Shown piece after piece: positions 4,900 to 41,044 of a stretch of 64,000 nucleotides of DNA. Origin of the DNA: Geobacter sp. (GTDB taxonomy: Bacteria; Desulfobacterota; Desulfuromonadia; Geobacterales; Geobacteraceae); NCBI GenBank assembly GCA_003574885.1, contig PJFC01000002.1, forward strand, positions 124,001 to 188,000, read 5' to 3'. The translations under genes were made by a program, and so were the position numbers. Every line of letters starts with the position of its first letter. The first letter of the stretch is position 1. The notes beneath the pieces were generated by a model. It saw only the letters and a list, made by a program, of their open reading frames with translations. It was not told the origin of the DNA and did not search any database.

Positions 4900-5316
4900 A
4901 TGTCTCGAAAGTTGATTTTCACCCTCTGCCTGGTTCTGTTTTCGGTTGCCACGGTCATGGCGGAGGACACCGGACCCACCGCAACAACCGCAGCCGTTGC
5001 AGTCACTAAAACTGGCGCCGCCAACGGAAATGCAACCACCGCCGCCAACGGAACCGGCTCAACCGGAGATTCAGATGCCAAGACACTCCGGGGGATGTCG
5101 GTTCTTGGCAACAACGAGGCACCGATGTCGCTTTTCATCGTGCCTTGGAAGAGTTCTGAGCTCGGTGTGGAGGCGAATTTGACGAGGACGCTGAACGAGC
5201 GCGATATGCCTGTGGACCGGGAGGTTTTCATGCGGGAGATCGCTTTCTATCAGGTTAGTGTGGGGAGCAAAGCTCCGTTACCAGCGGCCGGCGCCAAAAT
5301 GTCAAAAGTAGATTAG
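4900..5316 (+). CDS. Small exported protein of unknown function
   Basis: The ATG at 4900 is preferred because CAGGAG lies 9 bases upstream; a GTG at 4882 is possible but has no clear ribosome-binding site. The 138-residue product begins with a classical Sec signal (KLIFTLCLVLFSVATVMA, cleavage near AMA/AED). A Thr/Ala/Asn/Gly-rich low-complexity stretch of about 50 residues follows, then a compact C-terminal part containing 'GMSVLGNNEAPMSLFIVPW'. I do not recognise a family. It sits between TPR lipoproteins and the proton channel subunits, so it is probably a periplasmic accessory subunit of the same machine. Confidence 0.7.
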   Translation: MSRKLIFTLCLVLFSVATVMAEDTGPTATTAAVAVTKTGAANGNATTAANGTGSTGDSDAKTLRGMSVLGNNEAPMSLFIVPWKSSELGVEANLTRTLNERDMPVDREVFMREIAFYQVSVGSKAPLPAAGAKMSKVD

Positions 5317-39575: not shown

Positions 39576-39878
39576 ATGGAATTGACCGGTAAGCAGAAAA
39601 GATTTCTCAGGGGGCTCGGGCATGGACTCAAGCCCGTTGTAACTGTCGGAAAAAACGAAGTAAATGCTGCGCTTGTGCAGCAAACTGACGAAGCGCTGTC
39701 TTCTCACGAACTGGTCAAGATCAAGATCCTCGAAAGTTGCCTTCTTGATCGTCACGAAGTTGCGGAGGAACTGGCGACTACGTGCGGTGCGCAGGTAGCC
39801 CAGGTACTGGGGCGGACCGTCCTTCTCTATCGACCGGCAATGGAACCGAAACTTGAACTTCCCTCGGGTAAAAAATAG
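39576..39878 (+). CDS. yhbY: Ribosome assembly RNA-binding protein YhbY (CRM domain)
   Basis: 100 residues beginning MELTGKQKRFLRGLGHGLKP, then 'VTVGKNEVNAALVQQTDEAL' and 'HELVKIKILE', all typical CRM/YhbY motifs. It binds precursors of the 50S subunit. The start has GACGC before it and no stronger site. A hairpin begins at its stop codon. Confidence 0.93.
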   Translation: MELTGKQKRFLRGLGHGLKPVVTVGKNEVNAALVQQTDEALSSHELVKIKILESCLLDRHEVAEELATTCGAQVAQVLGRTVLLYRPAMEPKLELPSGKK

Positions 39879-39929: not shown

Positions 39930-40511
39930 CTAGTCGTCATGTCTGTCGTGCTTGTTTCTCTTTCGTTCTTCCTTTTCCCTCTTTTTTTCTTCCTTCCAAT
40001 CTTCCTTGCGGTTTTTCTTCCAGGTCTTGTCGGGACGAAAGTATTTCCCCCGGTAGTGTTCACGGTCATCACGGTAGTGATCGTACTCCACATCCCGGTA
40101 GTGGCGGATCTGTTCATAGCGGTATTTGCGGAGACCGGGAGGGAGCCTGCGCTCAGGCACCACAACCCACGGGCCGTTATAATTGGTCCCGCGATACCAT
40201 GCACCATCGTTGAAGAGGTAGTATCGACCGGAGACGTAAACCATGTCGTAGGGAATGTCAACAGCAACGTGAAAGCCGAGTTCAGGGGGTTCGAGAAACA
40301 CTGGCGGTTGCTGGATGATGATCCGTGGCGGAGCAGGAGGGGCGTAGACAGGTGGCGGGGGAGCATAGACCGGCGGAGGAGCGTAGACTGGTGGAGGAGG
40401 TGGCACCGGGTCGCCGCTGTGAATGTTGATGTCGAAGCCGACATTGGCACCGAAGGCGGCACTGGTGGCAAGGGAGAATGCCAGGGTAAGGGTGAACAGG
40501 GTGCGTTTCAT
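39930..40511 (-). CDS. Proline-rich exported protein controlled by a GEMM-I riboswitch
   Basis: The ATG at 40511 is used because AGGAGG lies 9 bases upstream; the open frame extends further but through the riboswitch leader. 193 residues with a Sec signal (RTLFTLTLAFSLATSAAFGA). Then come 'PPPPPVYAPPPVYAPPPPVY', a strand region with 'DGAWYRGTNYNGPWVVVPE', and a long basic tail (RDDREHYRGKYFRPDKTWKK). It resembles the YXWGXW/proline-rich exported proteins seen in Geobacter. It is likely periplasmic or surface-exposed, and its control by a cyclic dinucleotide links it to surface life or extracellular electron transfer. Confidence 0.85.
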   Translation of the reverse strand: MKRTLFTLTLAFSLATSAAFGANVGFDINIHSGDPVPPPPPVYAPPPVYAPPPPVYAPPAPPRIIIQQPPVFLEPPELGFHVAVDIPYDMVYVSGRYYLFNDGAWYRGTNYNGPWVVVPERRLPPGLRKYRYEQIRHYRDVEYDHYRDDREHYRGKYFRPDKTWKKNRKEDWKEEKKREKEERKRNKHDRHDD

Positions 40512-40574
40512 AACTGATGACCTCCTGGGTAGAGTTGTTCCCGATTCTGCCGGAACAGGGGCAGCGGTAAAATT

Positions 40575-40627
40575 GAAAAAGCCGCATTGCCGGTGTATAT
40601 CTGTAGAAGATATTTCGGCAACCCGGC
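40575..40627 (-). terminator. Riboswitch expression-platform terminator
   Basis: On the minus strand GCCGGGTTGCCG (40627-40616) can pair with CGGCAATGCGGC (40592-40581), 11 of 12 positions, followed by TTTTTC. The first arm is also the 3' end of the aptamer, so aptamer and terminator exclude each other. Ligand binding would then favour read-through (an ON switch). Confidence 0.7.
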
Positions 40628-40700
40628 TGTCTTCGTGAGACCCTGTAGGCTTTCCGTCCCACCCTCGCGGGTGGTTTAGTATTATCGTGTATCCAACAGT
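40610..40700 (-). ncRNA. GEMM-I (cyclic dinucleotide) riboswitch, GEMM-Ib/cGAMP type
   Basis: Read on the minus strand, the hallmarks are in order: AATACTAAACC, then a P2 hairpin ACCCGCGAGGGT, then GGGACGGAAAGCC joining to a second hairpin CAGGGTCTC/GAGACAGCC-like arm, ending GCCGGGTTGCCGA. The position equivalent to G20 of the Vc2 aptamer, just before the two bases preceding AAACC, is A. In Geobacter this A20 group is known to sense 3',3'-cGAMP. It lies in the 5' leader of the proline-rich gene. Confidence 0.88.
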
Positions 40701-40720
40701 CCTGAACTTTCTCATGAATC

Positions 40721-40749
40721 AAATAACGTATCTTAATGGTTGAAGTCAA
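40721..40749 (-). promoter_or_regulatory. Sigma-70 promoter of the riboswitch transcript
   Basis: On the minus strand TTGACT (40749-40744), a 17-base spacer and TTATTT (40726-40721). The start near 40714 would include the whole aptamer in the leader. Confidence 0.55.
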
Positions 40750-40855: not shown

Positions 40856-41044
40856 ATGGCAAGGATTGTCTGGGTGGATCGAGATGAATGTATCAGCTGC
40901 GGGCTCTGCGTGTCGTTATTGCCGGAAGTGTTCCGTTTCGAGGGGGATAAATCGGAAGCGTACAATCCGACTGGGGCGCCGGAAGAGAAGATACAGGAGT
41001 GCGTCGATGGCTGTCCGGTGGGGGCGATCCACTGGAAGGATTGA
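40856..41044 (+). CDS. Small [4Fe-4S] ferredoxin
   Basis: 62 residues. The cluster ligands are C12, C15 and C18 in 'ECISCGLCVSLLPEVF' and the CxxxCP cysteine near 53 ('CVDGCPVGAI'). It has a single cluster and the extra Cys49 typical of Desulfovibrio ferredoxin I-like proteins. It carries low-potential electrons in the cytosol. GAGAGGAG lies 12 bases before the ATG. It is convergent with the dGTPase gene. Confidence 0.9.
   Translation: MARIVWVDRDECISCGLCVSLLPEVFRFEGDKSEAYNPTGAPEEKIQECVDGCPVGAIHWKD

Follow-up and report, generated by a model that had tools for sequence, protein, structure and literature searches.

Within the window, the 64-kb stretch of DNA that was analysed, the locus of interest consists of a leader with a predicted RNA switch and the gene that follows it. 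Its features are:

40744–40749, minus strand: TTGACT, a −35-like hexamer, invariant in all four species of the genus and with no convincing −10 (four-species alignment)
40614–40690, minus strand: GEMM-I aptamer of the A20 (GEMM-Ib, cGAMP) type, with UACU at positions 19–22 (RF01051 and alignment with the genome's 22 other aptamers)
40581–40628, minus strand: terminator hairpin that reuses the 3′ arm of the aptamer, arms 40628–40616 and 40592–40581 (RNA fold)
40576–40580, minus strand: T5 tract of the terminator (sequence)
40521–40526, minus strand: AGGAGG ribosome-binding site (sequence)
39930–40511, minus strand: gene for a 193-residue, apparently exported protein, ATG at 40511 (open reading frame and translation)

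The next gene-like open reading frame (ORF) downstream (39576–39878) lies on the opposite strand, and the transcription unit is therefore probably a single gene; a terminator scan found none after the 39930–40511 gene. On the other side of the riboswitch, a divergent 62-residue ORF (40856–41044 of the window) reads in translation like a 4Fe-4S ferredoxin. The promoter predicted ahead of the switch held up in part. TTGACT does stand at 40749, and TTGACTT is invariant in the alignment of four species, but no good candidate for a −10 hexamer follows it and a sigma-70 pattern scan returned no promoter. A promoter before the riboswitch is thus weakly suggested.

The protein product begins with a signal-peptide-like stretch. 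PPPVYAPP repeats follow, residues 35–70 containing 19 prolines, and then a conserved domain with a WXXGXW-type stretch; the tail is rich in K, R, E and D. This agrees with the proline-rich exported protein of the original prediction, export being putative and read from the N-terminus; the arginine-rich tail that it also described is rich in arginine only as part of the K/R/E/D mixture. PF12779 (WXXGXW) matched residues 95–116, only 22 residues, with a score of 18.2 bits that barely exceeds the cut-off of 18; it also matched 14 of 26 homologues at E 0.1 or better. This short stretch is all that Pfam names in the product, and all that the product has in common with the PF12779 family. A six-frame search with PF12779 gave nothing at E 0.001 in the same genome or in 14 control genomes, and NCBIfam had no match for any of the three homologues submitted. 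As the product contains no cysteine, and so no haem motif, we rejected both a lipoprotein and a c-type cytochrome; none of the 26 homologues has CXXCH either.

For the predicted structure we used 26 of 30 homologues (leaving out L033, L039, L043 and L050). The AlphaFold2 model reached a mean pLDDT of 78, with high values between about residues 61 and 190, and consists of a small beta domain followed by helices. In the homologue alignment the invariant residues, the first residue excepted, lie between positions 70 and 160. A profile of the 26 homologues had no sequence relative among solved structures at E 1, and Foldseek returned no match to the model at E 0.001. The best VIA-align match was 8a0k_A (Z 4.4, r.m.s.d. 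3.8, 71 residues aligned), which may reflect a mere common arrangement, and a series of polo-box domains followed at Z of about 3 to 4; the lack of a better structural match is not evidence of a new fold.

A full GEMM-I aptamer had been predicted on the minus strand, and a covariance-model scan of the 64-kb window recovered it. RF01051 matched 40614–40690 over its full length (model positions 1–87 of 87) and scored 50.3 bits, where the gathering score is 35 (E = 7.3e-7); it is the sole gathering-level Rfam match in the window. Under lax filters the top-ranked clan member was c-di-GMP-I-GGC (RF03167), slightly above RF01051, but its 52.7 bits fall below its own gathering score of 59 and so do not confer membership. 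Folded alone, the aptamer reached a z of only −1.35. Three species of the genus share its sequence letter for letter and the fourth departs from it at one base, while the flanks vary.

The same genome (3.47 Mb, 23 contigs) contains 23 RF01051 matches above the cut-off, the window aptamer included. When these were aligned, the window aptamer had UACU where the canonical rows have GGGC, and A in alignment column 11, where eight aptamers of the genome have G. We take column 11 to be the position of G20 in the Vc2 numbering. With UACU at positions 19–22 the G20 position is occupied by A, and the UACU block and the column 11 alignment agree on the substitution that had been predicted. At this position A occurs in 15 of the 23 aptamers and G in 8; the UACU block is found in 14 of the 15, including that of the window, and the fifteenth (L013) has GAGC instead. 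The column assignment also agrees with the published equivalence of Cd1 G11 and Vc2 G20, our alignment being one without Cd1 (PMC9262584).

Downstream of the aptamer, AGCCGGGUUGCCG (starting at 40628) pairs with CGGCAAUGCGGC (40592–40581), and T5 follows at 40580–40576, matching the alternative pairing of the 3′ arm and the run of five T that had been described. One G-G mismatch interrupts the stem, which also has a possible G-U pair. A fold of 40570–40632 gave −24.8 kcal/mol with a z of −6.3, and none of 200 shuffles was as good; in the fold of the whole leader, this hairpin displaces the aptamer's own 3′ pairing. A pattern scan with a loop limit of 8 bases did not list the terminator at 40581–40628. 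The alignment of the genus's four species shows the hairpin to be kept. Each of the 14 UACU aptamers in the genome likewise has, at most 60 nt on, a hairpin built on the same arm, with T4 or more behind it. The UACU sibling hairpins range from −16.0 to −33.5 kcal/mol, and that of the window has −22.7 in the same measure. By fold and coordinates alike, the terminator shares bases with the ligand-binding fold. Because terminator and aptamer share the 3′ arm, the switch is predicted to be of the ON type, a reading that the sibling switches and the published pilM switch support.

The pilM GEMM-Ib riboswitch of Geobacter metallireducens has the same parts: a cGAMP-type aptamer, a terminator built from its own 3′ arm, mutually exclusive folds and an ON response, and it sequesters the ligand-pairing C75 in that terminator (PMC9262584). 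It controls pilus genes where the switch in the window precedes a WXXGXW-type gene, and its mechanism was measured, whereas here we infer cGAMP-dependent read-through because the anatomy matches. The pgcA (GSU1761) and Gmet_0970 riboswitches are likewise of the GEMM-Ib type and respond to cGAMP, pgcA being turned on by anti-termination; the gene downstream of the pgcA switch encodes a cytochrome, unlike the gene in the window (PMC6456294, PMC8835794).

We therefore regard the leader as a candidate GEMM-Ib (cGAMP-type) transcriptional ON riboswitch for the gene of a small, apparently exported WXXGXW-type protein, and consider this reading very probable. In the absence of ligand, the nascent RNA would pair the 3′ arm of the aptamer with the downstream arm, and transcription would stop at the T tract. 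The arm sequestered in this way would include cytosines near its 3′ end, the counterpart of the ligand-pairing cytosine in the pilM switch. When 3′,3′-cGAMP is present, the aptamer would keep its 3′ arm, the hairpin would be blocked, and polymerase would pass and read the gene.

The ligand is the point at which this reading is most open to an alternative, namely that c-di-GMP is the main ligand of a switch of the same build, or acts on it about as strongly as cGAMP does. At least one GEMM-I switch of G. sulfurreducens, that of the OmcST operon, is reported to be sensitive to both dinucleotides (PMC6456294), and membership of GEMM-Ib consequently does not prove selectivity. The position equivalent to G20 has been termed a selectivity factor and not a hard filter (PMC9262584), and the Rfam parent families carry c-di-GMP in their name. 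However, the A20G exchange alone swaps the selectivity of the Gmet_0970 riboswitch, turning it from cGAMP to c-di-GMP (PMC6456294), and 14 of the 23 aptamers in the present genome, that of the window among them, combine A20 with the complete UACU block, beside eight aptamers with G20; a GacA-like gene is also present. On balance, we consider a c-di-GMP or dual response improbable.

Still less credence, and very little in absolute terms, goes to a genuine GEMM-I aptamer that is now a relic or acts chiefly on translation instead of on termination. A weak promoter would suit such an element, as would a terminator whose stem has a G-G mismatch and whose tract is no longer than five T, but the aptamer is near-identical across the four species of the genus while its flanks vary, the hairpin is kept with a stability inside the UACU sibling range, and the ribosome-binding site lies about 50 nt past the T tract. 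The element in the window is most likely a GEMM-Ib switch of textbook type with cGAMP as its presumed ligand, and the assignment to the Hypr/cGAMP subclass made in the original prediction draws its support from the anatomy, the 13 UACU sibling switches, the GacA-like gene and the published pilM switch.

We searched the genome for a source of the ligand with PF00990, which gave 18 match rows, and 17 GGDEF loci were translated. The motif GHxxGD was replaced by GHLVGS in L070 and by GHFAGT in L071. Hypr enzymes have Ser (or Thr) where this motif otherwise has Asp, and by this mark both loci encode putative Hypr GGDEF cyclases. L070 is a REC-GGDEF protein whose best match among solved structures is 6d9m (E = 1.3e-72); GHLVGS is present in both, where PleD has GHDIGD. 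The record name of 6d9m describes a fusion of endolysin with a response receiver sensor diguanylate cyclase, presumably a Geobacter GacA construct. The Hypr-defining serine is spoken of in PMC8835794. Judged by its sequence, the GacA-like L070 is most likely the protein that makes 3′,3′-cGAMP, a prediction that gives the proposed switch a ligand source in the same cell. The gene directly downstream of L070 reads in translation like a histidyl-tRNA synthetase.

Six of nine products encoded behind UACU siblings scored over a Pfam cut-off (fn3, LysM/YkuD/SPOR, PilM, DUF4382, PAS/HisKA and cytochrome) and three did not; the translations of two of these three (behind L015 and L018) show CXXCH stretches. 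A PilM gene of the genome itself stands behind one of these switches (L010). These targets resemble the G. sulfurreducens regulon, which includes L,D-transpeptidases, pilMNOP with a regulator, PgcA and other cytochromes (PMC6456294). Because cytochrome, fn3, PilM and L,D-transpeptidase genes stand behind sibling switches, a role of the WXXGXW-type product in surface contact or electron transfer is suggested, and the protein may work alongside the cytochromes, pili and fn3 proteins under the same kind of control, in the cell envelope or on the cell surface.

To survey how often switch and gene occur together, we searched 97 genomes, three of them from the same genus as the genome of the window, and found homologues of the product in 85. 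The region of the best match was inspected in 78 of these 85, in 30 by way of loci L024–L053 and in 48 by way of fetched upstream stretches; the remaining seven, each with a match, are G006, G014, G051, G054, G072, G074 and G088. L054 and L055 were excluded from the counts, their printed stretches being identical to L025 and L027. L055 is the locus of Geomobilimonas luticola JCM 17780 and L027 comes from one of the three genomes of the window's genus, and we therefore assign the genome of the window to Geomobilimonas, within Geobacteraceae. A GEMM-I aptamer lay directly upstream of the best homologue in 32 of the 78, always with UACU. L048 provides a 33rd case, in which the aptamer (697–773, UACU) precedes a tandem homologue that itself stands before the best one. 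For the other 45 best homologues no upstream GEMM-I was counted; an aptamer downstream of the homologue (L029) and one at a distance of about 700 nt upstream, where the intervening stretch has no clear homologue (L092), were left out as upstream aptamers.

The pairing was unevenly distributed. With L048 counted, it was seen in 27 of 45 genomes of family f1, 5 of 8 of f3, 1 of 23 of f4 and neither of the two of f2. Direct pairing occurred in 12 of 25 genera (13 with L048), reaching 4/4 in the genus of the window, 5/5 in g10 and 7/7 in g11, and only 5/19 in g13. Among second or later homologues of their genomes, 4 of the 12 looked at had an aptamer upstream. The genome of the window has such a second homologue (L139, G000:C9:473839-474183; 37% identity), with no RF01051 match nearby. 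UACU was present in 39 of 40 printed aptamer rows, which include some not upstream of a best homologue. The UACU motif was found somewhere in 92 of the 97 genomes, and a reversed control pattern in none, so the homologues without a switch mostly belong to genomes with such switches elsewhere. Since 45 of 78 best homologues nevertheless have no GEMM-I upstream, the pairing of GEMM-I with the WXXGXW-type gene is recurrent but not obligatory.

The RNA itself is a textbook GEMM-Ib switch; the interest of the locus may lie in its target gene. Control of an uncharacterised gene by cGAMP is not new in itself, because the 17 GEMM-I riboswitches published for G. sulfurreducens include some before hypothetical genes (PMC6456294); GSU1018 (PMC10599522) and KN400_1038 (PMC13194489) are two hypothetical genes said to have a GEMM riboswitch. 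The papers cited here treat the cGAMP regulon chiefly in terms of its cytochromes, pili and L,D-transpeptidases, and the hypothetical genes are set aside. Among the literature matches listed and in the papers cited here, the WXXGXW-type family is not named as a cGAMP target, and as far as we found the family is uncharacterised. Since the same switch directly precedes it in 32 of the 78 genomes inspected and in 12 of 25 genera, the family is a candidate target for genetic work on cGAMP effects beyond cytochromes. A bolder proposal is that the WXXGXW-type protein is a core cGAMP effector across the order, located in the envelope or at the surface, produced when cells turn to contact-dependent respiration on solid minerals, and no less typical a target than cytochromes and pili; we regard this as conceivable but rather doubtful.

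The survey of the genome's own aptamers yielded several further arrangements. L013 (G000:C10:348094-348170), whose context (GAGC) is canonical apart from A20, lies upstream of a multihaem CXXCH protein, and no T4 tract was found 20 to 60 nt past the aptamer. A further sequence type, AGCC at positions 19–22, is represented by L014 and L016 (G000:C10:197656-197734 and C1:348948-349026). L009 and L001 (G000:C10:101927-102002 and 102124-102213) combine a UACU (A20) aptamer with a canonical G20 aptamer about 120 nt on, both upstream of one ORF resembling the fn3 ORF behind L012, and form a possible two-signal (cGAMP plus c-di-GMP) tandem. L022 and L007 (G000:C1:4983-5059 and 5201-5276) are tandem UACU aptamers before the LysM/YkuD/SPOR protein; tandem switches have also been reported in G. 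sulfurreducens (PMC6456294).
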